Source of the DNA: Modestobacter sp. VKM Ac-2982 | GTDB taxonomy: Bacteria; Actinomycetota; Actinomycetes; Mycobacteriales; Geodermatophilaceae | Direction: 5' to 3' | Length of the DNA: 64,000 nucleotides | Assembly: GCF_026967935.1 (NCBI RefSeq) | Contig: NZ_JAPVBL010000001.1 | Location: 434,001 to 498,000, forward strand | Part shown: positions 34,295 to 46,806 of the stretch, in pieces | Layout: every line of letters begins with the position of its first letter | How positions within the stretch are numbered: position 1 is the stretch's first letter | Made by a program: the position numbers and the translations under genes | The notes under the pieces: model-generated | Seen by the model: only the letters and a program-made list of their open reading frames with translations | Database searches by the model: none | What the model was told of the DNA's origin: nothing

Positions 34295-35695
34295 ATGACG
34301 CTGCTCGGACGACTGCGGGACCTCGCCGCCCGCACCCGCCCGGTGCACCCGGAGACGGCGCGAGCGCTCGCCGAGCGGTGGGCGGCGCTGCCGGCGCACG
34401 TGCAGACCCCCGCGCAGAGCCTGGGCCGGCACGCGGTCGGCTGCGAGGGCACGCACGGCGTGTTCCCGAAGTGCAACCTCACCTGCACGCCCTGCTACCA
34501 CTCCGCCGACGCCAACAAGGTGCGCATCGACGGGCAGCACACCGTCGACCAGGTCGAGCAGCAGATGGCCTACCTGGAGCAGCGGCGCGGCCCCTACGCC
34601 CACGCCCAGTTGATCGGCGGTGAGGTGAGCCTGCTGCCGCCGGACGACCACGCCGCGGCGCTGCTCGCGATGCGGGCGCACGGGCGGTCGCCGATGTCGA
34701 TGACCCACGGTGACTTCGACCCCGAGTACCTGCGCGCGCTGGTGACCGACGGCGAGGGGCGGCTGCGGTTCGACCGGGTGAGCTTCGCGGCGCACTTCGA
34801 CATGCTGATGCGGGGCCGCCGTGGCGCGGTCAAGCCCCGGTCGGAGGCCGAGCTGGATCCGTTCCGCGAGCGGTTCGTGCAGATGTTCCGCGACCTGCGC
34901 GCCGAGACGGGCCTGCGGTACTACCTGGCGCACAACATGACGGTCACCCCGGCCAACCTCGACCAGGTGGCCGAGACGGTGCGCGCGGTGCTGCCGATGG
35001 GCTTCTCGATGATGAGCTTCCAGCCGGCCGCGCACGTCGGGGACGACCGCCGGTGGAAGGAGTCCTACACCGCAGTGGACGTCGATGCGGTCTGGGCGCA
35101 GCTGGAGCAGGCGCTGGGGCACCGGGTGCCGCACGAGGGGATCGAGTTCGGCGACCCGCGGTGCAACCGGGTCGCCTTCGGCTTCCTGGTCGCCGGCCGC
35201 TGGCGCGGGCTGATCGACCCGGACGACGCCCGTGACCGCGCGGCCCGCGACCGGTTCTTCGCGCACTTCGGCGGGGTGGCCTTCAGCGGGACGCCGCCGC
35301 TGCTGCTGGTCGGCAAGGTGCTCCGGGTGCTGCGCCGGCACCCCGGCGACCTGCCGGTCGCGCTCGGTTGGGCGCGGCGCACGGTGCGCCGGGCCGGCGG
35401 CGCCCGGGCGCTGGTGCGGGCCGCCCGCACCGGTGCGCTGGGGCTGATGACCTTCGAGGTGCACAGCTTCATGGACGCCGAGCAGGTCGGCCCGGCCTGG
35501 GAGCTGATGCAGCGCGGGGAGCAGGCCACCGACCCGCAGCTGCGCGCCACCCAGGAACGGCTCGCCGCCTGCACCTACTCGATGGCCCACCCCGAGACCG
35601 GCCAGCTGGTGCCGGCCTGCGCGCAGCACTCCGTACTCGACCTGGCGGAGAACGCGCAGCTGCGGAGGCTGCTACCGCTGACGGTCGTGGGCTGA
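34295..35695 (+). CDS. uncharacterised radical SAM protein
   Basis: A 466-residue radical SAM enzyme. The cluster motif is C60-x3-C64-x2-C67 (KCNLTCTPCYHSADANKV), with an extra C50 ten residues earlier. Features include the GGEVSLLPPDDH segment in place of the GGEP motif, a histidine-rich TMTHGDFDPEYL and HFDMLMRG stretch, and C-terminal cysteines in LAACTYSMAHP and LVPACAQHS that may bind a second cluster. I do not know a characterised homologue. It is not SPASM-like MftC. Its stop overlaps the convergent YnjD-like gene by 24 bases. Strong GAGGGGA before the ATG. Confidence 0.72.
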   Translation: MTLLGRLRDLAARTRPVHPETARALAERWAALPAHVQTPAQSLGRHAVGCEGTHGVFPKCNLTCTPCYHSADANKVRIDGQHTVDQVEQQMAYLEQRRGPYAHAQLIGGEVSLLPPDDHAAALLAMRAHGRSPMSMTHGDFDPEYLRALVTDGEGRLRFDRVSFAAHFDMLMRGRRGAVKPRSEAELDPFRERFVQMFRDLRAETGLRYYLAHNMTVTPANLDQVAETVRAVLPMGFSMMSFQPAAHVGDDRRWKESYTAVDVDAVWAQLEQALGHRVPHEGIEFGDPRCNRVAFGFLVAGRWRGLIDPDDARDRAARDRFFAHFGGVAFSGTPPLLLVGKVLRVLRRHPGDLPVALGWARRTVRRAGGARALVRAARTGALGLMTFEVHSFMDAEQVGPAWELMQRGEQATDPQLRATQERLAACTYSMAHPETGQLVPACAQHSVLDLAENAQLRRLLPLTVVG

Positions 35696-36772
35696 GGCGC
35701 CCTCCCGCGCGTCCGCCAGGCCGGCCGGGGGGACGACGCACCGGGCGGTGACCGGGATGCGCAGCCCGACCTCGGCGCCGACCGCGACCTCCTCGCCGGG
35801 CGACAGCTCGGCGGCCACGGCAGCCGGCTCGGTCCCGCGGCCGGCCACCTCGACGGTGACCAGCGCCCGCAGCCCGCGCCGGCGGACCTGCACCACGGTG
35901 CCGCGGGCGTCGGCGTCCGCCGCGGCGACGAGGGTGACCGCCTCCGGGCGGACGACGAGCACCCCGGGGCCCTCCGGGGCCGGGGCCGGGAGCTCGAGCT
36001 CGCCGAGTGCGGAGCGGTGCCGCCCGCCGGTGACGGTCCCGGGCACCTCGGTGCGCCCGCCGAGCAGCCGGCTGACCGCCAGGGACCGGGGCCGCGCGTA
36101 CAGCTCCCGCATCGGCCCCAGCTGCTGCAGCCGGCCGGCGGCCAGCACCGCGACGGTGTCGGCCAGCGCGTCGGCCTCCGCCGGGTCGTGGGTGACCAGC
36201 AGCACCGTCGGGGCCAGCCGCAGCCGGAGGTCGGCCAGCAGCTCGTGCATCTCCTGACGCAGCCCGGTGTCCAGCGCGCTGAACGGCTCGTCCAGCAGCA
36301 GCACCCGGGGCTCGGCGGCGAGCGCCCGGGCCAGCGCCACCCGCTGCGCCTGGCCGCCGGACAGCGCCCGCGCCGGCCGGCTGCCGAACCCGCCCAGCTG
36401 GACCAGCTCGAGGTGGTGCTCGGCGCGCTCGCGCGCCTGCCGCCGGGGCAGGCCGCGCACCCGGTCGGCGAAGCCGACGTTGTCCCGCACCGACAGGTGG
36501 GGGAACAGCAGCGGGCGCTGGAAGACCATCGCCATCCCGCGTCGCTCCGGGACGACGCCGGCCAGGTCCCGGCCGTCGAGGTGCACGCTGCCCCGGGTCG
36601 GGGTGTCCAGCCCGGCGGTCAGCCGGAGCACCGTGCTCTTCCCCGAGCCGGACGGGCCGAGCACCGCCACGCACGACCCGGCCGGGACGGCGAGGGTCAG
36701 GTCGTCCAGGGCCGGCGGGGCCCCGGCGGCGTGCACGCGGGTGAGCCCGGTCAGCTGCAGGGAGCCGCTCAC
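35672..36772 (-). CDS. ynjD: YnjD-like ABC transporter ATPase
   Basis: A 366-residue ABC ATPase. Walker A GPSGSGKST at 39-47, signature LSGGQ (ALSGGQAQRVALARAL), Walker B VLLLDEP, and a C-terminal TOBE-like beta domain (VLVVRPEAVTLVAA). It belongs to the importer class with binding protein and two permeases, here YnjB and YnjC-type. GTGA overlap with the upstream permease; stop overlaps the radical SAM gene on the other strand. The C-terminal domain is longer than in E. coli YnjD, whose family is called by operon structure. Confidence 0.75.
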   Translation of the reverse strand: MSGSLQLTGLTRVHAAGAPPALDDLTLAVPAGSCVAVLGPSGSGKSTVLRLTAGLDTPTRGSVHLDGRDLAGVVPERRGMAMVFQRPLLFPHLSVRDNVGFADRVRGLPRRQARERAEHHLELVQLGGFGSRPARALSGGQAQRVALARALAAEPRVLLLDEPFSALDTGLRQEMHELLADLRLRLAPTVLLVTHDPAEADALADTVAVLAAGRLQQLGPMRELYARPRSLAVSRLLGGRTEVPGTVTGGRHRSALGELELPAPAPEGPGVLVVRPEAVTLVAAADADARGTVVQVRRRGLRALVTVEVAGRGTEPAAVAAELSPGEEVAVGAEVGLRIPVTARCVVPPAGLADAREGASAHDRQR

Positions 36773-37560
36773 CGCCGGGCCCGCCGGCCGATCGAGCCGA
36801 TCACGACGAGCAGCGCGACCGGCGGCAGCACCGCCGACAGCGCCAGCACCGCCACCTGGGCGTCGTTGCCGGTGGCCGAGGCGGCGGCGCCGACCAGCAG
36901 CGGCAGGGTGACCAGCCGGCCACCGCCGACGAGCAGGGTCACGACGTAGTCGCTCCACCCCACCAGGAACGCCAGGAACGCCGCGCCCGCGACCGCCGGG
37001 GCCAGCAGCGGCAGGTGCACCGAGCGCACCACCCGCCAGGCGGAGGCGCCGAGCAGCCGGGCCTCCTCGTCGTGGTGCCGGTCGTGCGCGGCGTACGCGG
37101 CCCGCATCACCACGGTCGTGTACGGGATCGCCGCCACGGTCAGCAGCAGCACCAGACCGACCTCCGCCGGCACCCGCAGCCGCAGCAGCAGCACGTCCAG
37201 CCCGAGCGCGACGGCGAAGGGCGGGAGCACCAGCGGGGAGAGCAGCACCGCGAACACCAGCCCGGGCGCGCGCAGCGCCCCCGAGGTCAGCGCCCGGCCG
37301 GCCAGCGCGCCCAGCGGGGTGGCCAGCACGGCCACCGCCGTCCCGAGCACCGCCGACCGGACGGCGGCGGCACCGGCGCCGGCGGCGCGGGCCTCGGCCA
37401 GCCCGGTCGTCCCCCAGGCCTGGGGCAGCAGGGCCGGCGCCGACCAGCGGTCGGCGGCGGCCCACAGCAGCAGCGGCACGAGCGGGAGCACCAGCCAGAA
37501 GGCGAGCGCGCCGCGCCCCAGTCGGGAGCCGAGGCGGGAGACGAGCAGCGGTGCGCTCAC
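36769..37560 (-). CDS. YnjC-type ABC permease, second half
   Basis: A 263-residue inner membrane permease with six or so helices. The permease EAA-like loop is DEEARLLGASAWRVVRSVHLPLLAPA. It corresponds to the C-terminal half of the long E. coli YnjC; here the permease is split into two overlapping genes. GTGA overlaps the upstream gene's stop, and its own stop overlaps the ATPase start. So the two halves and the ATPase are tightly coupled. Confidence 0.7.
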   Translation of the reverse strand: MSAPLLVSRLGSRLGRGALAFWLVLPLVPLLLWAAADRWSAPALLPQAWGTTGLAEARAAGAGAAAVRSAVLGTAVAVLATPLGALAGRALTSGALRAPGLVFAVLLSPLVLPPFAVALGLDVLLLRLRVPAEVGLVLLLTVAAIPYTTVVMRAAYAAHDRHHDEEARLLGASAWRVVRSVHLPLLAPAVAGAAFLAFLVGWSDYVVTLLVGGGRLVTLPLLVGAAASATGNDAQVAVLALSAVLPPVALLVVIGSIGRRARR

Positions 37561-38411
37561 TGCTCGGCCGCCAGCCGGCGCAGCGACCGCAGCGAGACCA
37601 GCACGGCCACCAGCCCCAGCGCCGACGTGGTGACCGCGACCGCGGCGGCCTGGGGCCGTGCGGCGAGGTCGATGGAGGTGAACAGCCGGACGGCGAGCAC
37701 CGGCAGCGGCTCCGGTGACGGGCGGCCCAGCAGGGCGGCGACCTCGTAGGAGCCCAGCGTGTAGACGAAGCTCACCGCCGCGGAGGCGCCCAGCGCCGGG
37801 GCGGCCAGCGGGAGGGTGACGTGCCGGAACCGGGCCCACCGGCCGGCGCCCAGCAGCGCGGCGGTCTCGGTGTAGGAGGCCACCCGGCTGCTCAGCACAC
37901 CGGCGACCACCAGGGCGATGAACGCCGACTCCTTCCAGGCGTACTCGGCACCGACCGCGATCCACCAGCGGCCGCCCACCAGCGCCGGCCAGTCCGCGGG
38001 GGCGATGCCCAGCAGCCGGGGCAGGAACCCGGCGTCGGCCAGCAGCAGCCCCATCGCCGCCGCGCCCACCAGGTGCGGGACGGGGATGGTCAGCGAGCTG
38101 AGCGTGGCCAGCAGCCGGCTCCGCCGCGCCCCGGCGGTCACCGCCAGCGCCAGGCAGAGCCCGACCACCGTGGCCACCGCCGTCGCCCCGGCCGCGATCG
38201 CCAGCGACAGCCGGATCGAGGTGCCGAGCTCGGTGGCCCGCCAGGCGTCCAGGGACAGCTCCGGCCGGCCGACCAGCGGGGTCAGGCCCAGGCTCAGCAG
38301 GACGGCGGAGGTCAGGGCGGCACCGACGACGACCACCACCGGCACCACCGCGGGCAGCACCAGCAGGGTCGCGCGGCGGGACCCGGCGCCGGCCCGGCCG
38401 GCTGCGGTCAC
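37557..38411 (-). CDS. YnjC-type ABC permease, first half
   Basis: A 284-residue inner membrane permease with about six helices, with an EAA-like loop TETAALLGAGRWARFRHVTLPLAAPALG. It resembles the first half of YnjC (COG4135). The GTG at 38411 overlaps the binding-protein stop (GTGA). It forms the channel with the following permease. A basic start (AGRAGAGSRR) precedes the first helix. Confidence 0.7.
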   Translation of the reverse strand: MTAAGRAGAGSRRATLLVLPAVVPVVVVVGAALTSAVLLSLGLTPLVGRPELSLDAWRATELGTSIRLSLAIAAGATAVATVVGLCLALAVTAGARRSRLLATLSSLTIPVPHLVGAAAMGLLLADAGFLPRLLGIAPADWPALVGGRWWIAVGAEYAWKESAFIALVVAGVLSSRVASYTETAALLGAGRWARFRHVTLPLAAPALGASAAVSFVYTLGSYEVAALLGRPSPEPLPVLAVRLFTSIDLAARPQAAAVAVTTSALGLVAVLVSLRSLRRLAAEQ

Positions 38412-39649
38412 CCGGCCGCGACCTCGCGCCGCCACCCGTCGTCCAACGGCGTCACCCAGCCGGCCGAGAGCTCCGGGTCCGCGCCGGCGGAGAGCTCCTC
38501 GTAGCTGGGCACCACCGCGGAGTCGGGCAGCGCCTCGAACCCGGCGCGCGCGTCGTCGCCGAGCCGGTCCAGGTCCAGCACGGTGAACTGCCCCCAGACC
38601 TCAGGGCGTGCCTTGGCCAGCTGCTGCTCCGGCGAGAGCGCCAGGTCGGCCACCACCATCGCGCCGGCCTGGTCATCGGAGGTCGAGGGGATGGCCAGGA
38701 AGCTGGCGTTGCCGAGCGTGCCCTCGTCCAGGGTGAGCACCCGGGTGGTCTCGGGGAAGGTGCCGTCGGCGACCAGGTCGTCGACGGTCGCCGGGCCGTA
38801 GGTCATGGTCATGTCCACCTGGCCGTCGGCGAACAGCTGGTCGAGCTCCTGCTGGCTCTGCGGGTAGGTGTCACCCTCCCGCCACAGCGCGGGCGCCAGC
38901 TCGGCGAGCCGGTCGTAGAGCGCTGGGCTCAGCTCCTCGTAGGCCTCGTCCGAGTGCTCCAGCGGCACCTCGTCGACGCCGCCGGACACGCTGTAGAGCA
39001 CCTGGCGCAGGAACGCCGAGCCGGTGAAGTCCGGCGGGGCCGGGTAGGTGAACCGGCCCGGGTTCACCTCCGCCCAGTCGAGCACCCCGGCCAGCGTCGT
39101 CGGCGGGTCGGGCACCCGGGCGGCGTCGTAGACCAGGCTGAACTGGGCCTTGTGCCAGGGCGCCTCGCAGCCGTCGACCGGGGTGCCGAAGTCGCTGGTC
39201 AGCAGCGGGTCGTCGGGGTCGGTGCCGGCGATGTTCGGCAGCATCGACGTCCAGTCGCACAACCAGGCGCCGGCCTGGCGACCGGTGGCGAAGTTGTCGC
39301 CGTTCACCCAGACCAGGTCCACCTCGCCCTCGGTGACGCCGGCCTGCCGCTCGGAGAGGACGCGGTTGACCGCGTCCCCGGTGTCGGCGATCGGCACCCG
39401 GCGCAGGGTCACCCCGAGCTCGGCCGCCGCGCGAGCAAGCACGTCGTCGACGTAGGCGTTGCCCTGCACGTCGCCGCCGTACATCCACAGGTCGACCGTC
39501 TGCCCCTCGGCCTCGGCGAGCACGTCGTCCCACGAGCGGTCCTCCGCCACCGGCGCCGCCGCGTCCGGCGCGGCACACCCGGTGAGGACGGCGACCGAGG
39601 CGCACGCCGCGACGAGCACGCCGCCGTGCCAGCGGTGGAGCACGGTCAC
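38408..39649 (-). CDS. ynjB: YnjB-like substrate-binding lipoprotein
   Basis: A 413-residue extracytoplasmic binding protein with lipobox ending at C25 (AVLTGCAAP). The order SWDDVLAEAEGQTVDLWMYGGD, LRRVPIADTGDAVNRVLSER and EGEVDLVWVNGDNFATGRQ corresponds closely to E. coli YnjB (COG4134). Later are NPGRFTYPAPPDFTGSAFLRQ and FADGQVDMTMTYGPA. The ligand is not known; family members resemble polyamine/thiamine or iron binders. GGGAGG lies 9 bases before the GTG. It is the first gene of the import operon and divergent from the YnjF-like gene. Confidence 0.82.
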   Translation of the reverse strand: MTVLHRWHGGVLVAACASVAVLTGCAAPDAAAPVAEDRSWDDVLAEAEGQTVDLWMYGGDVQGNAYVDDVLARAAAELGVTLRRVPIADTGDAVNRVLSERQAGVTEGEVDLVWVNGDNFATGRQAGAWLCDWTSMLPNIAGTDPDDPLLTSDFGTPVDGCEAPWHKAQFSLVYDAARVPDPPTTLAGVLDWAEVNPGRFTYPAPPDFTGSAFLRQVLYSVSGGVDEVPLEHSDEAYEELSPALYDRLAELAPALWREGDTYPQSQQELDQLFADGQVDMTMTYGPATVDDLVADGTFPETTRVLTLDEGTLGNASFLAIPSTSDDQAGAMVVADLALSPEQQLAKARPEVWGQFTVLDLDRLGDDARAGFEALPDSAVVPSYEELSAGADPELSAGWVTPLDDGWRREVAAG

Positions 39650-39781
39650 GTGTGGCGCCTCCCTGACGTCGGTCCGCCCCTGCCGGCGGGTGGCCGCGGC
39701 CCAGGGGCTGCGCCAAGATCGTGCCCCACCCGATGGTGCCCCGCCACCGGGTCGACGTGCTGCCGAGGATCGGAGACCCGG

Positions 39782-40408
39782 GTGCTCGACGCTGCCGCGC
39801 GGCGGGTGCTCGACCGGCCGCTCGCCCGGGTGGCCGGTGTGCTGGACCGCCCGTGGATGAGCCCGGACCGGCTGACCGCCGCCGGGCTGGTGCTCGGCCT
39901 GGGCAGCGCCGCCGCCGCGGCGGCGACGCTGTGGTGGCCGGCGCTGGTGCTCTGGCTGTTCTCCCGGCTCGCCGACGGGCTGGACGGCCCGCTGGCCCGG
40001 CGGCGTCGCGCGGCCGGCGCGCCCGGGGACGCCGGCGCCGGCGGGTTCTTCGACATCACCGCGGACTTCCTGGTCTACGGCGCCGGCGTGCTCGGCGTCG
40101 CCCTCGGGGTGACCGCCGAGCGGGGCGACCCGTGGGAGCCGTTCGCCGCCGTCCTGCTCGCCTACTACGTCAACGGCGCTGCGTTCCTGGCCTTCTCCTC
40201 GCTCGCCGAGCGGGCCGGTCGGCAGCTGGACGACGGCCGGTCGCTGTCCTCCCTCGGCGGGCTGGCGGAGGGCACCGAGACGATCGTGGTGCACGCGCTG
40301 TGGCTGCTGCTGCCGGCGTTCGCCTGGCAACTGGCCTGGGTCTGGGCGGTGGTGGTCGGCATCAGCGCCGTCCACCGGATGTGGGCGGGTCACCGCGCGC
40401 TGCGCTGA
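39782..40408 (+). CDS. ynjF: CDP-alcohol phosphatidyltransferase, YnjF-like
   Basis: A 208-residue polytopic membrane enzyme. The CDP-OH-P motif is present: DGLDGPLAR, then FFDITADF (D-G-x2-A-R ... G-x3-D-x3-D). It transfers phosphatidyl from CDP-diacylglycerol to an alcohol; the alcohol is not known. It is 132 bases from ynjB, divergent, matching the E. coli habit of keeping ynjF by ynjBCD. GTG with GGAG before it. The 3' end overlaps the convergent oxidoreductase by 19 bases. Confidence 0.8.
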   Translation: MLDAAARRVLDRPLARVAGVLDRPWMSPDRLTAAGLVLGLGSAAAAAATLWWPALVLWLFSRLADGLDGPLARRRRAAGAPGDAGAGGFFDITADFLVYGAGVLGVALGVTAERGDPWEPFAAVLLAYYVNGAAFLAFSSLAERAGRQLDDGRSLSSLGGLAEGTETIVVHALWLLLPAFAWQLAWVWAVVVGISAVHRMWAGHRALR

Positions 40409-41853
40409 GCCTCCCGGCGGTCGGTGAGCACGGCACGGAGCCGGACGAAGAGCCGCAGCGCGATCCGGACCACCGGGGCGCGGAGCCGGGCGCGCACGTC
40501 GGCGATGGCGGCGTTCCACGCCGCGTCGTTGTAGGTCGGGTAGGGGTGCGTGGTGCCGGCGACGTCCTGCACCCGCAGCCCCTGCCGGACGGCGAGGGTC
40601 AGCTCGCCGAGGCTCTCCCCGGCCCGGGGGCCGATCACGGTCGCTCCGCGCAGCCGCCCGCGCCGGTCGTGCACCAGCGTCGCGGAGCCGGCGGTGAGGT
40701 CCTCGGCGATGGCCCGGTCGATCTCGGTGTGCGGGAGGCGCCGGACGGTCAGCCCGGCGGCCGCTCCCTCGGCGGGGCTCATGCCGACCGAGGCCACCTC
40801 CGGGGAGGTGTAGGTGACCCGGGGGACGACGGGGTCGACCCGGCGACGCAGCCCGAGCACCGCGTTGCTCGCGGCCAGGCTGCCGCGCACGCCGGCGACG
40901 TGGGTGAACCGCGGGCCGCCGGTGACGTCGCCGGCCGCCCGGATCCGCGGGTTGCCGGTGCGCAGGGCGTCGTCGACGACCACGCTGCCGTCCTCGGCCA
41001 GCTCCACCCCGGCCGCGGCGCAGCCCAGGCCCTCGGTGCGGGCCCGGCGCCCCACGGCGACCAGCAGCCGGTCGAAGGGCACGGTGCCGCCGTCGGCCAG
41101 CTGGAGCTCACCGCCGTCCCGGTCGCCGGTGACCTCGACCGCCCGAGCGCCGTTCCGCACGTCGACGCCGTCGCGGACCAGCGCGGCGGTGACCAGCTCG
41201 GATGCCTCCTCGCTCTCCACGGCCAGCAACCGGTCGGCGGAGTTGACCACCGTGACCTGCGCGCCGAACCGGGCGAACGCCTGTCCGAGCTCGCAGCCGA
41301 TCGGTCCGCCACCGAGGACCGCCAGCCGGGGAGGCAGCGTCGTCAGGCCCCACACGGTCTCGTTGGTGAGCGGGTCGACGCCGGCCAGGCCAGGGACGGG
41401 CGGGAGCGCCGGACCCGAGCCGGTGGCGATGACCGCGGCCCGGAACCTCATCTCCCGACCGTCGACGGTGGCCCGGTCGGGCCCGGTGAACACGGCATCG
41501 CCGGTCAGCACGGTCACGCCCTTGCTGCGCAGCGTCTCCGGGGAGTCGACCGGCTCGATCGTGGCGATGGCCTGTTTCACGTGGATCATGACCCGGGCGA
41601 AGTCCACCTCGACGCCGGCGACGTCCACCCCGAGCCGGGCGGCCGCGCGAGCGTCGGCCGCCGCTGTGGCCGAGGCCAGCAGCGCCTTCGACGGCACGCA
41701 CCCGGTCCACAGGCAGTCACCGCCGGTGCGTTCCCGCTCGGTCAGCAGAACCCGGGCGCCCAGGGCGGCGGCGGTCGTCGCCGCCACGATCCCGGCGGTG
41801 CCACCGCCGATGACGAGCAGGTCCCACGTCCGTCCTCGGGTCACCGCGCCCAC
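40390..41853 (-). CDS. mercuric-reductase-like FAD disulfide oxidoreductase
   Basis: A 487-residue flavoprotein of the pyridine-nucleotide disulfide class. FAD motif LVIGGGTAGIVAATTAA; redox-active cysteines C47 and C52 (GGDCLWTGCVPSKALL); NAD motif LAVLGGGPIGCELGQAFARFG; C-terminal dimerisation with PYPTYND, in place of the HPT/HxxxxE of dihydrolipoamide dehydrogenase. A basic, helical C-terminal extension of about 25 residues may touch the membrane. Not MerA itself: the N-terminal heavy-metal domain and Cys-Cys C-terminus are absent. Substrate unknown. It overlaps ynjF. Confidence 0.75.
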   Translation of the reverse strand: MGAVTRGRTWDLLVIGGGTAGIVAATTAAALGARVLLTERERTGGDCLWTGCVPSKALLASATAAADARAAARLGVDVAGVEVDFARVMIHVKQAIATIEPVDSPETLRSKGVTVLTGDAVFTGPDRATVDGREMRFRAAVIATGSGPALPPVPGLAGVDPLTNETVWGLTTLPPRLAVLGGGPIGCELGQAFARFGAQVTVVNSADRLLAVESEEASELVTAALVRDGVDVRNGARAVEVTGDRDGGELQLADGGTVPFDRLLVAVGRRARTEGLGCAAAGVELAEDGSVVVDDALRTGNPRIRAAGDVTGGPRFTHVAGVRGSLAASNAVLGLRRRVDPVVPRVTYTSPEVASVGMSPAEGAAAGLTVRRLPHTEIDRAIAEDLTAGSATLVHDRRGRLRGATVIGPRAGESLGELTLAVRQGLRVQDVAGTTHPYPTYNDAAWNAAIADVRARLRAPVVRIALRLFVRLRAVLTDRREAQRSAR

Positions 41854-41904: not shown

Positions 41905-42975
41905 GTGGCAGACCGGGTGCACGACGTGCTGGTGGTCGGTGCGGGCCAGGCCGGCCTGGGCACGGCCTGGTGGCTGGCCCGAAAGGGCGTTCGCGATGTG
42001 GTGGTGGTCGACGCCGCCGAGGTCGGGGGCAGCTGGCTGCGCCGCTGGGAGAGCCTGCAGCTGTTCACGCCCCGCCGGTTCAGCAGCCTGCCCGGGATGG
42101 CCTTCCCGGCCGGGCCGACACCGACGCCGGACCGGGTCGAGATGGCGGACCACCTGCACCGCTACGCCCGCCGGCTCGACGTCCCGGTGCGCCCCTGGAC
42201 CCCGGTCACCCGGCTGACGCCGGACCCGGTGGGCTTCCGCGCCGAGACGCGGGAGGGGCCGGTGCTGGCCCGGCAGGTGGTGCTGGCCACCGGCCCGTTC
42301 ACCCGGCCGCGGGTGCCGGCCGCGGCCCAGGAGCTGGACCCGGCGGTCGCCCAGTTGCACTCCGCGGACTACTGCCGACCCGCCGACCTCCCCGCGGGGC
42401 CGGTGCTGGTCGTCGGCGGCGGCAACTCGGCGGCGCAGCTGGCCGTGGAGCTGTCGGCCACCCACGAGGTCACCGTGGTCAGCCCGCGGGAACCCCGGTT
42501 CTTGCCGGAGCGGGTGCTCGGCGTGAGCGTCTACTGGTGGCTGCTGCTGTCCGGGGTGCTCAACGCCGGCAGCGACAGCTGGGTGGCCCGGGGCATCCGC
42601 CGGCGCGGCGACGCGATCATCGGCCGGGAACTGCGCCGACTCCGGGACGACGGCGTCATCGGCTGGCGCACCGGGCGGGTGGTCGGCGCGGAGGGCGACC
42701 GGGTGCACCTGGAGGACGGGCGGACCGAGCAGGTGTCCGCCGTGCTGTGGTGCACCGGCTTCCTGCCCGAGACCGGCTGGATCGACGTCCCGGGCGCGCT
42801 GGGCGCCGACGGCCTGCCGGTCCACCGCTGCGGGGCCTCGCCGGTGGCCGGGCTGCACTGGATGGGGCTGCCGTGGCAGACCCGGGTCAACTCCTCGATC
42901 ATCGACGGCGTCGACCGGGACGCCCGGCGCACCGCCCGGCGGATCAGGCGTCAGGCCCGCAGCGAGACCGTCTGA
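41905..42975 (+). CDS. flavin-containing monooxygenase-like NAD(P)-binding protein
   Basis: A 356-residue flavoprotein. FAD motif LVVGAGQAGLGTAWWLARKG near the start, GGSWLRRWESLQLFTPRRFSSLPG, then NADP motif VLVVGGGNSAAQLAVELS, and a CTGFLPETGWI near the end. It fits the class B flavin monooxygenase/trimethylamine-monooxygenase type. The GTG at 41905 was chosen; GGAGG is about 10 bases upstream, and a GTG 12 bases on is an alternative. It overlaps the convergent MBL gene by 25 bases. Substrate not known. Confidence 0.75.
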   Translation: MADRVHDVLVVGAGQAGLGTAWWLARKGVRDVVVVDAAEVGGSWLRRWESLQLFTPRRFSSLPGMAFPAGPTPTPDRVEMADHLHRYARRLDVPVRPWTPVTRLTPDPVGFRAETREGPVLARQVVLATGPFTRPRVPAAAQELDPAVAQLHSADYCRPADLPAGPVLVVGGGNSAAQLAVELSATHEVTVVSPREPRFLPERVLGVSVYWWLLLSGVLNAGSDSWVARGIRRRGDAIIGRELRRLRDDGVIGWRTGRVVGAEGDRVHLEDGRTEQVSAVLWCTGFLPETGWIDVPGALGADGLPVHRCGASPVAGLHWMGLPWQTRVNSSIIDGVDRDARRTARRIRRQARSETV

Positions 42976-43754
42976 CCCCGGCCGACGGTGCGGATCTCGC
43001 CCGGGGCCCGGCGGGCGGCCACCTCGGCGACGAAGTTCCCCAGCGGGTCCTTGAACAGGCCGTAGTCGTCGTAGTGCACCGGCACGGTCACCGGGGGCGT
43101 GAGCAGCTCGACCAGGTCGGCGCCCTGCCGGGCGTCCATCGTCACCGTGATGCCGGCGACCTTGGTGCCACCCAGGTGCGGGATCATCGCGTCCAGCGGA
43201 CCGCAGCGCTGCAGCACCTCGCCGAGCGCCGGCCGGAACAGCGTGTCGCCGCTGACGTACCCCCGCCAGGTGACGGCGCCGTCGCGGACCAGCTCGAGCA
43301 CGCTGCCCATCACCTGCGGCAGCAAGCGGGCGAGCGGTCCGGGGCCGTGGACCCCGGGGACGCTGGTGATCCGCAGGGTGTCGCCGCCCCGGCTGAGCTC
43401 GTGGGTCTGCCAGGGCCGCAGGTCGGAGGTCTGGGTGAAGCCCCGCTTCGCCAGGCAGCCGGCGGCCTCCGGGGTGGTCACCACCGGGGTCTCCTTGGGC
43501 AGCGACCGGGTGGCCACCCGGTCCCAGTGGTCGCCGTGCATGTGGCTGAGCAGGACGGCGTCCAGCGCCGGCAGCTGGGCGGGCACGAGCGCCGGGTCGG
43601 TCAGCCGCCGGCTGCGCAGCCCGTAGCCCAGGTGCGCCCACTGGCCCCGGTGCAGGAAGTTCGGGTCGGTCAGCAGGGCGAAGGGCCCGATCCGCAGCAG
43701 GGTGGTCGCGGTGCCGCCGAAGGTGAGCGTGACGTCGTCCCCAGGAGCGGTCAT
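42951..43754 (-). CDS. metallo-beta-lactamase-fold hydrolase
   Basis: A 267-residue MBL-fold protein. The metal motif is LSHMHGDHWD (H71, H73, D75, H76), followed by VPGVHGPG, YVSGDTLF and the last HYDDYG. Short loops and a C-terminal ARRAPGEIRT place it in the UlaG/RomA-like (L-ascorbate lactonase type) group, which hydrolyses phosphodiesters or lactones. It converges on the monooxygenase. Confidence 0.72.
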   Translation of the reverse strand: MTAPGDDVTLTFGGTATTLLRIGPFALLTDPNFLHRGQWAHLGYGLRSRRLTDPALVPAQLPALDAVLLSHMHGDHWDRVATRSLPKETPVVTTPEAAGCLAKRGFTQTSDLRPWQTHELSRGGDTLRITSVPGVHGPGPLARLLPQVMGSVLELVRDGAVTWRGYVSGDTLFRPALGEVLQRCGPLDAMIPHLGGTKVAGITVTMDARQGADLVELLTPPVTVPVHYDDYGLFKDPLGNFVAEVAARRAPGEIRTVGRGQTVSLRA

Positions 43755-43906: not shown

Positions 43907-45417
<1,511 letters not shown>

Positions 45418-45421
<4 letters not shown>

Positions 45422-46806
45422 GCTCCCAGACCCCGCAGCAGCTCGTCGAGGCCGCGCTGGCGGCGTCCACGGTGGACGGGCAGATCACCTACGTCACCGA
45501 CAGCTCGGAGGCCAACCTCCGCTGGGCGAGCAACAGCCTGACCACCAACGGCGCGATGCGCTCCCGGCAGGTCGTCGTCATCTCCTTCGTCGACGGCGGC
45601 GCCGGCATGGCGACCGGCACGGTGGCCCGCACCGGCACCCCGGACGTCGCCGAGCTGGTGCGGATGAGCGAGCAGGCCGCGCGGGACGCCGGGCCGGCCG
45701 AGGACGCCATGCCGCTGATCAGCGAGGCGCCCCCGGGCGCCGGCGACTGGGACGCCGAGCCGGCCGAGACCTCGATCAACGTCTTCGCCGAGTTCGCCCC
45801 GGCGCTGGGCGAGGCCTTCGCCGCTGCGCGCAGCCGCGAGGAGCTGCTCTTCGGGTTCGCCGAGCACCAGCTGTCCACCACCTACCTGGGCACCTCCACC
45901 GGACTGCGGCTGCGGCTCGACCAGCCCACCGGGCGGGTCGAGCTGAACGGGAAGAGCACCGACTTCGGCCGGTCCGTCTGGGCGGGCGTCGGCACCCGCG
46001 ACTTCACCGACGTCTCGGTGGCCGACCTCGCCGCCGAGGTGCAGCAGAAGATGGCCTGGTCGCAGCGGCGGGTCGAGCTGCCGGCCGGGCGGTACGAGAC
46101 GCTGCTGCCGCCGTCCACGGTCAGCGACCTGATGATCCCCACCTACTGGGCGATGGAGGCCCGGGACGCCGACGAGGGCCGCAGCGTGTACGCCCGAGCC
46201 GGGGGCGGCAACCGGATCGGGGACCGGCTGGCGCAGCTCCCGCTGACCCTGCGCAGCGACCCGTACGCGCCGGGGCTGGAGACCGCGCCGTTCCAGGTGG
46301 TCGGCGGCTCCTCGGGGTCGGCCTCGGTCTTCGACAACGGCATGGCGACGCCGGCCGTCGACTGGATCCGCGACGGCGTGCTGACCAACCTGATCCGGCC
46401 CCGGGCCTGGGCGCTGAAGACGACGGCACCGGCGACCGCGGCGGTGGACAACCTCGTCCTGGAGGACCCGAACGCCACCGCGACCCAGGCGGAGATGATC
46501 GGCCGCACCGAGCGCGGGCTGCTGCTGACCACGCTCTGGTACATCCGGGAGGTCGACCCGCAGACACTGCTGGTCACCGGCCTCACCCGCGACGGCGTCT
46601 TCCTCGTGGAGGACGGCGAGGTGACCGGCGCGGTGAACAACTTCCGGTTCAACGAGTCGCCGGTCGACCTGCTGGGCCGGGCCACCGAGGCCAGCCGTAG
46701 CGTGCGGACCCTGCCGCGGGAGTGGAACGACTGGTTCACCCGGGCCTCGATGCCGATGCTCCGGGTCCCCGACTTCAACATGAGCTCGGTCAGCCCGGCC
46801 AGCTGA
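45418..46806 (+). CDS. tldE: metalloprotease subunit TldE (PmbA)
   Basis: A 462-residue PmbA/TldE protein, the non-catalytic partner of TldD with the same fold but without the HExxxH zinc motif. Homology-defining segments include ATGTVARTGTPDVAELV, ELNGKSTDFGRSVWAG and VGGSSGSASVFDNGMATPA. Overlapping start with tldD shows the operon. A perfect stem-loop lies 7 bases behind its stop. Confidence 0.92.

Follow-up and report, generated by a model that had tools for sequence, protein, structure and literature searches.

Do the genes that enclose a ynjBCD/ynjF-like locus in an actinobacterium belong to it and, if so, what could the whole assembly do? We addressed this question in Modestobacter sp. 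VKM Ac-2982, in a stretch of 64,000 nucleotides (contig NZ_JAPVBL010000001.1, positions 434,001 to 498,000; hereafter the window), where genes for a YnjB-like lipoprotein, two permeases, an ATPase and a YnjF-like CDP-alcohol phosphatidyltransferase lie between those for a radical SAM enzyme and a flavoprotein. A preliminary description of the window had linked the two outer genes to ynjBCD/ynjF, a link to be regarded as chance if the genes did not co-occur in other genomes. In window coordinates, the features are as follows:

34295..35695, plus strand: radical SAM enzyme, 466 amino acids (PF04055, 31.2 bits, above 29.5)
35672..36772, minus strand: YnjD-like ABC ATPase with a C-terminal TOBE domain (PF00005, PF08402)
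36769..37560, minus strand: permease 2, YnjC-like (YnjC2; PF00528), with a GTGA overlap with the ATPase start
37557..38411, minus strand: permease 1, YnjC-like (YnjC1; PF00528), with a GTGA overlap
38408..39649, minus strand: YnjB-like solute-binding lipoprotein (NF008633, 451.6 bits vs. a cut-off of 203)
39650..39781, no strand: divergent intergenic region of 132 bases, read from the sequence and without a copy of the extracytoplasmic function (ECF) sigma factor motif in the window scan
39782..40408, plus strand: YnjF-like CDP-alcohol phosphatidyltransferase (PF01066, 26.0 vs. 22 bits)
40390..41853, minus strand: FAD-dependent class I oxidoreductase, the flavoprotein (Pyr_redox_2 and dimerisation domain), with a possible other start at 41844

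The description of the lipoprotein, permeases and ATPase as one overlapping operon was confirmed in positions, overlaps and families: three 4-base GTGA overlaps, read from the sequence, join YnjB to YnjC1, YnjC1 to YnjC2 and YnjC2 to YnjD, as in a translationally coupled operon. The arrangement reported around them was also recovered, with the radical SAM gene converging on the ATPase gene by 24 bases (end at 35695, ATPase stop at 35672), the flavoprotein gene converging on ynjF by 19 bases (stops at 40390 and 40408) and ynjF divergent from ynjB across the 132-base gap (starts at 39782 and 39649).

The association was then examined in other genomes. Of 250 relatives of the radical SAM enzyme in the genome collection, the best 80 were analysed as 79 loci, a sample that is biased to close relatives of the window's enzyme and in which several loci are short contigs; the closest named relatives are from Modestobacter sp. 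VKM Ac-2984 (96%) and VKM Ac-2985 (95%). Genes were counted by tblastn, dropping matches with E > 1e-15. YnjB was present in 58 loci, YnjC1 in 58, YnjC2 in 59, YnjD in 60, YnjF in 57 and the flavoprotein in 60, the YnjD and flavoprotein counts also dropping matches below 45% identity (61 and 65 loci without that filter). All six genes accompanied the radical SAM gene in 52 of the 79 loci, in six gene orders, and 42 of these complete sets had the window's order; the radical SAM gene stood alone in 11 loci. Among the 60 loci of at least 16 kb, 47 contained all six genes and ten fewer than four.

In line with these counts, the genes co-occurred at the genome level. In a class sample of 296 evenly drawn genomes, in which at most five first-look candidates were scored per listed genome, the radical SAM enzyme was found in five and YnjB (E < 1e-100) in seven, one weak YnjB match (G176) being left out. 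YnjB was present in all five radical SAM genomes vs. 2 of the 291 others (one-sided Fisher p of 1e-9, uncorrected for kinship), and lay 0.8–4.8 kb from each of the six radical SAM copies, on the same contig. Among 59 relatives, the radical SAM enzyme occurred in 12, and orthologues of YnjB (E < 1e-180) and YnjF (E < 1e-80) were found in an identical set of nine genomes, all nine with the radical SAM enzyme; two weak YnjB-like matches (22–27% identity) and one weak YnjF-like match were not counted. Paralogues of the flavoprotein family were present in all 59. Its close relatives (at least 58% identity), among the matches listed, were confined to the nine YnjB/YnjF genomes, to G003 and G045, which encode the radical SAM enzyme without a YnjB orthologue, and to G017 and G018, which have neither. 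The linkage of the radical SAM and flavoprotein genes to the ynj genes is thus well supported as real rather than chance, in agreement with what the preliminary description had asserted. The window's locus is one instance of a conserved module that moves horizontally and is kept across several bacterial families in shuffled gene orders.

Flanking genes served as controls in the same 79 loci. The amidohydrolase was found in 15, a flavin-monooxygenase-like (FMO) gene in 12, DedA in 11, MBL in 10 and TldD in 9, all confined to Geodermatophilaceae except for four amidohydrolase matches at 26–27% identity. The cupin, FMO-like, MBL, DedA, amidohydrolase and TldD neighbours were accordingly rejected as parts of the module, being present in few loci and mostly in Geodermatophilaceae. 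In the window, an FMO-like gene (41905-42975) and an MBL-fold gene (42951-43754) stand next to the module, and 43907-46806 holds a TldD-like gene followed by another gene.

A counterpart of the module is found in Escherichia coli K-12, where one stretch carries ydjX, ydjZ (both VTT), ynjA (AhpD-like), ynjB, ynjC, ynjD and, reversed, ynjF, so that the statement that E. coli keeps ynjF with ynjBCD was correct. The two loci share YnjB (35% identity between window and E. coli), YnjC (both permease halves), YnjD and YnjF; against actinobacterial relatives, the best matches of E. coli YnjF (40%, E 1e-36) and YnjD (39%, E 5e-31) were clear, and those of YnjC to permeases 1 and 2 were weak (E 3e-10 and 3e-8). 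Some actinobacterial relatives also have counterparts of the VTT proteins YdjX and YdjZ and of YnjA, although YnjA and the actinobacterial CMD proteins share a Pfam family without a BLAST match at E 1e-4. By contrast, the 20 kb read in E. coli contain neither the radical SAM enzyme nor a MerA-like flavoprotein and carry YdjY and YnjE; moreover, E. coli YnjC is a single chain of 511 amino acids and YnjD is shorter (217 amino acids). The window locus corresponds, on the actinobacterial side, to E. coli ydjXYZ-ynjABCD/ynjF, to which it adds a radical SAM enzyme and a FAD oxidoreductase that is not fused.

Proteobacterial plasmids provided a further comparison. YnjB matches were obtained in 193 plasmid records, of which four were opened. 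In three of them (Klebsiella, Pseudoalteromonas and Falsirhodobacter), the same transporter, transferase and flavoprotein families as in the window are present, but the VTT (TVP38) protein and the FAD oxidoreductase are fused into one gene beside YnjBCD and the CDP-alcohol phosphatidyltransferase, and no radical SAM enzyme is annotated in the stretches read. The oxidoreductase halves of the two fusions compared showed 40–43% identity to the actinobacterial flavoprotein. The fourth, from Aliiroseovarius, has YnjBCD and the transferase with no annotated VTT protein or such flavoprotein adjoining. On the Klebsiella plasmid, the fusion cluster also includes ECF sigma factor and CMD genes and lies beside DUF2282, DUF692 and DoxX genes and an insertion sequence element.

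The accessible portion of a 2022 paper calls E. coli YnjBCD an uncharacterised transport system. According to excerpts of PMC9184624, a change in ynjC raised fitness under colistin, and ynjC deletion reportedly lowered the uptake of one of two cationic dyes, mechanism and substrate being called unknown there. Similarly, the part available of a Klebsiella survey (PMC8767333) places ynjC under selection and proposes, without a test, a colistin link, and in the visible part of PMC13131330 a tolerance screen includes a ynjB deletion. These ynjC phenotypes fit a membrane role, without favouring either a lipid product or uptake. Among the matches listed in the open-access literature, no paper on the module or on YnjB or YnjF biochemistry was found.

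Clustering of the neighbour genes of the 79 loci revealed additional partners. A VTT-domain (DedA-superfamily) protein was encoded in 41 loci, usually immediately before YnjF, a class I methyltransferase in 29, a Crp-type regulator in 15, and an AhpD/CMD protein and an ECF sigma factor in 11 each; zf-HC2 partners formed two clusters (5 and 3 loci), as did DUF427 proteins (11 and 5). In one locus (L094), the radical SAM gene occurs twice in a local duplication: downstream of both copies come a hydrolase-like gene, CMD, Crp and a membrane gene.

With regard to the individual proteins, YnjB carries LTGC, which we take to be a lipobox-like motif, and its structure model (pLDDT 89.4) has a periplasmic-binding-protein fold. 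CDP-alcohol phosphatidyltransferases are characterised by the motif DXXDG(X)2AR...G(X)3D(X)3D. YnjF retains it completely (DGLDGPLAR...GGFFDITAD), with a longer spacer than in E. coli YnjF, and of 14 sequences aligned, 12 had the strict pattern, those of the window and E. coli among them; by sequence, YnjF thus qualifies as a member of this family with a full catalytic motif. Ubiquitin matches of YnjF residues 149-173 were short and taken as chance, and profile searches of solved structures gave no match with one alignment (A2) and one weak match (E 0.0037) with the other (A4). The radical SAM enzyme contains a CX3CX2C motif (C60/C64/C67) that is invariant in 52 aligned homologues, a G-G-E motif and four more invariant cysteines (C50, C290, C426 and C442). 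Its region 330-385 is basic (net charge of +5 to +12 in 52 of 52 homologues, the background rate of such charge in GC-rich proteins not being controlled), which would be compatible with membrane contact.

Since an importer, a phosphatidyltransferase and often a VTT protein travel together, we tentatively favour, at somewhat less than even odds, a mobile module of the membrane that would join a polar head group to lipid and that, in some relatives, would be under stress control. YnjB would capture a polar alcohol, possibly phosphorylated, for import by YnjC1, YnjC2 and YnjD. The radical SAM enzyme, perhaps at the membrane surface, and in some relatives the methyltransferase too, would tailor the alcohol, and YnjF would join it to the phosphatidyl group of CDP-diacylglycerol. 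Where present, the VTT-family protein might redistribute the lipid, and the flavoprotein may supply or recycle a redox step. Control of the cluster, in some relatives, would lie with an ECF sigma factor, its anti-sigma-like zf-HC2 partner and a common promoter motif. The data establish the gene families, their linkage, the enrichment of the promoter motif and the catalytic motifs; the ligand, the lipid product, the order of the steps and the roles of the VTT protein and flavoprotein are what we infer here. The preliminary description had proposed a similar route from importer to phosphatidyltransferase and tailoring: the association on which it drew was borne out and the anatomy fits, while the chemistry stays at the level of a proposal.

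The closest alternative, possible but less probable, is a module for thiol, soft-metal or reactive-chlorine stress without a dedicated lipid product. Here, the MerA-like flavoprotein would reduce the stressor with help from AhpD-like and redoxin genes, YnjBCD would import a protective or chelating solute, and YnjF and the VTT protein would only adjust the membrane. The regulatory data are relevant in this context. In a blind search of 14 loci with ECF genes, 10 shared one dyad (at best 6 in any of 10 shuffles), and scanning with a weight matrix yielded GGGAA[GT]-N16-[CT]G[GT]GTTC. At a spacing of 16, this motif had 14 copies in the 79 loci vs. 0.4 per shuffle, with 0–3 at other spacings from 10 to 23, and it was present in 8 of 11 loci with a called ECF gene vs. 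2 of 68 without; some of the loci counted had served to derive the pattern, and related loci are not independent. A looser scan of 84 loci gave 66 matches vs. 19 in one shuffle, in type A and type B loci (defined below), upstream of YnjB (9), the radical SAM gene (6), the ECF gene (4), the flavoprotein (2) and TIGR04283 (1), with 26 of the 66 lacking a gene close downstream.

Seven genomes were also scanned in full, in which the reversed control pattern occurred once. Nine of the ten strict sites in G145 lay on the two contigs that carry its copies of the module, and four of the five in G003 in its type B cluster; G021 had one, before YnjB, G031 one on another contig, and the window's genome, G045 and G286 none. 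SigR/RsrA responds to thiol stress, and the tenth G145 site lies upstream of a genuine SigR/RsrA operon, which implies an overlap between the motif and a SigR-type promoter. The module's own ECF factor in G145 is a factor other than SigR (TIGR02947, 86.5 bits vs. a cut-off of 251.55). In the same genome, a motif copy was found just upstream of glutaredoxin and glucose-6-phosphate dehydrogenase genes. Taken together, the sigma factor, its zf-HC2 partner and the promoter motif suggest that thiol or metal stress controls the cluster in some relatives. As regards E. coli, partial views of two papers place ydjXYZ-ynjABCD among FNR targets (PMC3688515) and ynjA/ynjB among BaeR-regulated, envelope-stress genes (PMC2731931), in keeping with the stress alternative.

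The flavoprotein bears on the same alternative. In dihydrolipoyl dehydrogenase, the catalytic histidine sits in an HPTxxE motif, and MerA has a tyrosine in its place. As in MerA, the flavoprotein has tyrosine where lipoamide dehydrogenase has histidine (HPYPTYND vs. HAHPSLSE in lipoamide dehydrogenase and APYLTMAE in MerA), YPT being present in 10 of 10 aligned family sequences. It also keeps a CX4C redox pair and has a basic C-terminal tail. MerA further features a C-terminal vicinal cysteine pair, which the flavoprotein C-terminus lacks and which the MerA of locus L183 displays (SCCAG). Identity as mercuric reductase was rejected (TIGR02053, 350.2 bits, below 454.45), the closest family being PRK06370 (NF004991, 427.7 bits, below 620); of the earlier label of a mercuric-reductase-like flavoprotein, the tyrosine remains, and the family score and cysteine pair do not. 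Near a module copy in G145 (L183 and L161) are genes for a MerR-family regulator, glutaredoxin, glucose-6-phosphate dehydrogenase and a true MerA (508 bits vs. 454.45), and all of these but the dehydrogenase would suit the stress alternative. Nevertheless, that alternative leaves unexplained why the phosphatidyltransferase is kept as tightly as the importer (57 and 58 of 79 loci), and why a radical SAM enzyme is present at all.

An organoarsenical, arsenosugar-like pathway, in which the radical SAM enzyme and flavoprotein would act on an organoarsenic head group that YnjF puts onto lipid, is unlikely. Relevant to it are a second type of locus and distant homologues of the radical SAM enzyme. 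The 79 loci comprised 58 of type A (at least three Ynj genes), 8 of type B, 7 partial A and 6 of neither type. In type B, the radical SAM gene is found with a TIGR04283- or TIGR04282-like glycosyltransferase, an MTAP-like phosphorylase, a metallophosphatase–radical SAM fusion or a MauE-like protein; the flavoprotein was called in 6 of the 8, and one type B locus (L099) also has YnjD and part of YnjC2 at a contig end. In the radical SAM tree, a type B Modestobacter locus (L118) is nested among the type A loci of Geodermatophilaceae (SH-aLRT 98), and L125, a type A locus whose YnjB is divergent (44%), lies inside the main B clade (SH-aLRT 96), requiring at least four A/B changes by a quick method without bootstrap. 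In that tree, the enzyme of L115, labelled Planococcus, pairs with a Microbacterium one, and this locus is probably mislabelled or contaminated. In two type B clusters with TIGR04283 (L118:13566-15248 and L051:14614-16293), the metallophosphatase is fused to an Rv1681-like radical SAM domain, possibly a further undescribed enzyme.

TIGR04283 and TIGR04282 exceeded their cut-offs in the type B loci tested, and TIGR04283 did so in three of the 59 relatives (G003, G031 and G045), all radical SAM-positive and without a YnjB orthologue, on contigs that also bear the radical SAM gene or a piece of it; G031 has a shortened type A contig (L047) as well. Distant radical SAM homologues (25–27% identity) were found on 46 plasmids, 44 of them from Burkholderia, all those listed being B. 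glumae. In the single record examined among the 44, from B. glumae, the homologue lies with ArsS, DUF547, DUF427, an ECF sigma factor and a zf-HC2 protein, and in Roseomonas with TIGR04282, DUF547, VTT and FAD oxidoreductases. The Cupriavidus order is ArsM-like (below cut-off), AhpD-like, ArsS (over cut-off), FAD oxidoreductase, VTT-like, TIGR04283, MTAP, radical SAM and DUF547. All seven radical SAM cysteines are kept in the aligned Burkholderia, Roseomonas and Cupriavidus homologues. ArsS-type clusters share with the module a homologous radical SAM enzyme, the FAD oxidoreductase group and VTT-like and AhpD-like proteins; they differ in carrying ArsS (in Cupriavidus also ArsM-like, MTAP and TIGR04283), and both YnjBCD and YnjF were absent from the stretches read (L135 and L136). 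Through these homologues and the type B loci, a link to arsenosugar chemistry exists.

However, ArsS over cut-off was found neither in the 59 relatives nor in the window's genome, and ArsM over cut-off was found in 18 of the 59, comprising only one of the nine with YnjB and YnjF and two (G031 and G045) of the three with a type B locus. TIGR04283 over cut-off was restricted to the three radical SAM genomes with such a locus. The window's radical SAM enzyme is not ArsS (TIGR04167, cut-off 300), which was absent from its family matches at E 0.01, and no ArsM match was obtained at E 1e-30 in the window's genome. An arsenosugar cluster (ArsM plus ArsS) was thus rejected for this genome, and an arsenical product there is disfavoured.

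It is quite improbable that the radical SAM enzyme matures a peptide or protein, a small substrate from the vicinity of the cluster, and is linked to the lipid genes only indirectly. Foldseek matches to its model (pLDDT 84.8, low near residues 51-80 with the cluster ligands and in some other loops) do include SkfB, SuiB and anSME, but as generic radical SAM neighbours together with unrelated barrels, at TM-scores near 0.3 by query length, and no conserved short peptide gene was detected among the neighbour clusters, open reading frames below 60 amino acids not being called. TrsS (NF045646) and Tes (NF045702) were rejected as identities (19.9 and 14.6 bits vs. cut-offs of 490 and 450), two distant homologues reaching 100–106 and 71–90 bits, and no curated family model above cut-off was found for the enzyme. 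Finally, a chance neighbourhood, which the commonness of convergent overlapping gene ends in GC-rich genomes might suggest, has a negligible probability, refuted as it is by co-occurrence in several families and gene orders.

We therefore return to head-group attachment as the most economical reading of an importer, a phosphatidyltransferase and a VTT protein found together; the stress alternative is a close rival, and both may hold. Several observations weigh against the head-group reading. The best fold matches of YnjB (a Salmonella solute-binding protein and PotD-, thiamine-, iron- and dinucleotide-binding proteins; TM about 0.5–0.6) bind many ligand types, so that the fold does not fix the cargo, and the thiamine/sulfate-type annotation of E. 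coli YnjC is, in the excerpts of PMC9184624, without direct evidence. No VTT, methyltransferase, AhpD-like or ECF sigma gene lies inside the window's module, the first two and the last being those that count here, and the ECF motif was absent from both window and genome scans. In type B loci, the radical SAM enzyme and flavoprotein occur without YnjF, so that a lipid step is not common to all contexts. Lastly, G286 has the module genes without the radical SAM enzyme; since this enzyme is also found away from Ynj clusters, it has the look of a tailoring enzyme that can be exchanged rather than of an obligatory core of the module.

For the orphan E. coli ynj locus, the module brings co-selected partners, a promoter motif, distant genomic links to arsenosugar chemistry and, in some relatives, a candidate inducer class, thiol/metal stress; it also draws attention to the radical SAM family described here. 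In a bolder and rather unlikely reading, Ynj modules and ArsS-type clusters would be sister assemblies on a shared membrane-redox core (radical SAM enzyme, PRK06370-like flavoprotein, VTT and AhpD-like proteins) with exchangeable halves, either MTAP and glycosyltransferases for a sugar-bearing product or YnjBCD and YnjF for head-group salvage and phospholipid anchoring. If this were true, YnjF-type enzymes would supply the lipid-anchoring step that is missing for sugar lipids of an unusual and possibly element-bearing kind, with the ynj locus of E. coli representing a reduced version of that pathway. An unsolved E. coli cluster is tied to a new radical enzyme, which suggests a membrane pathway.

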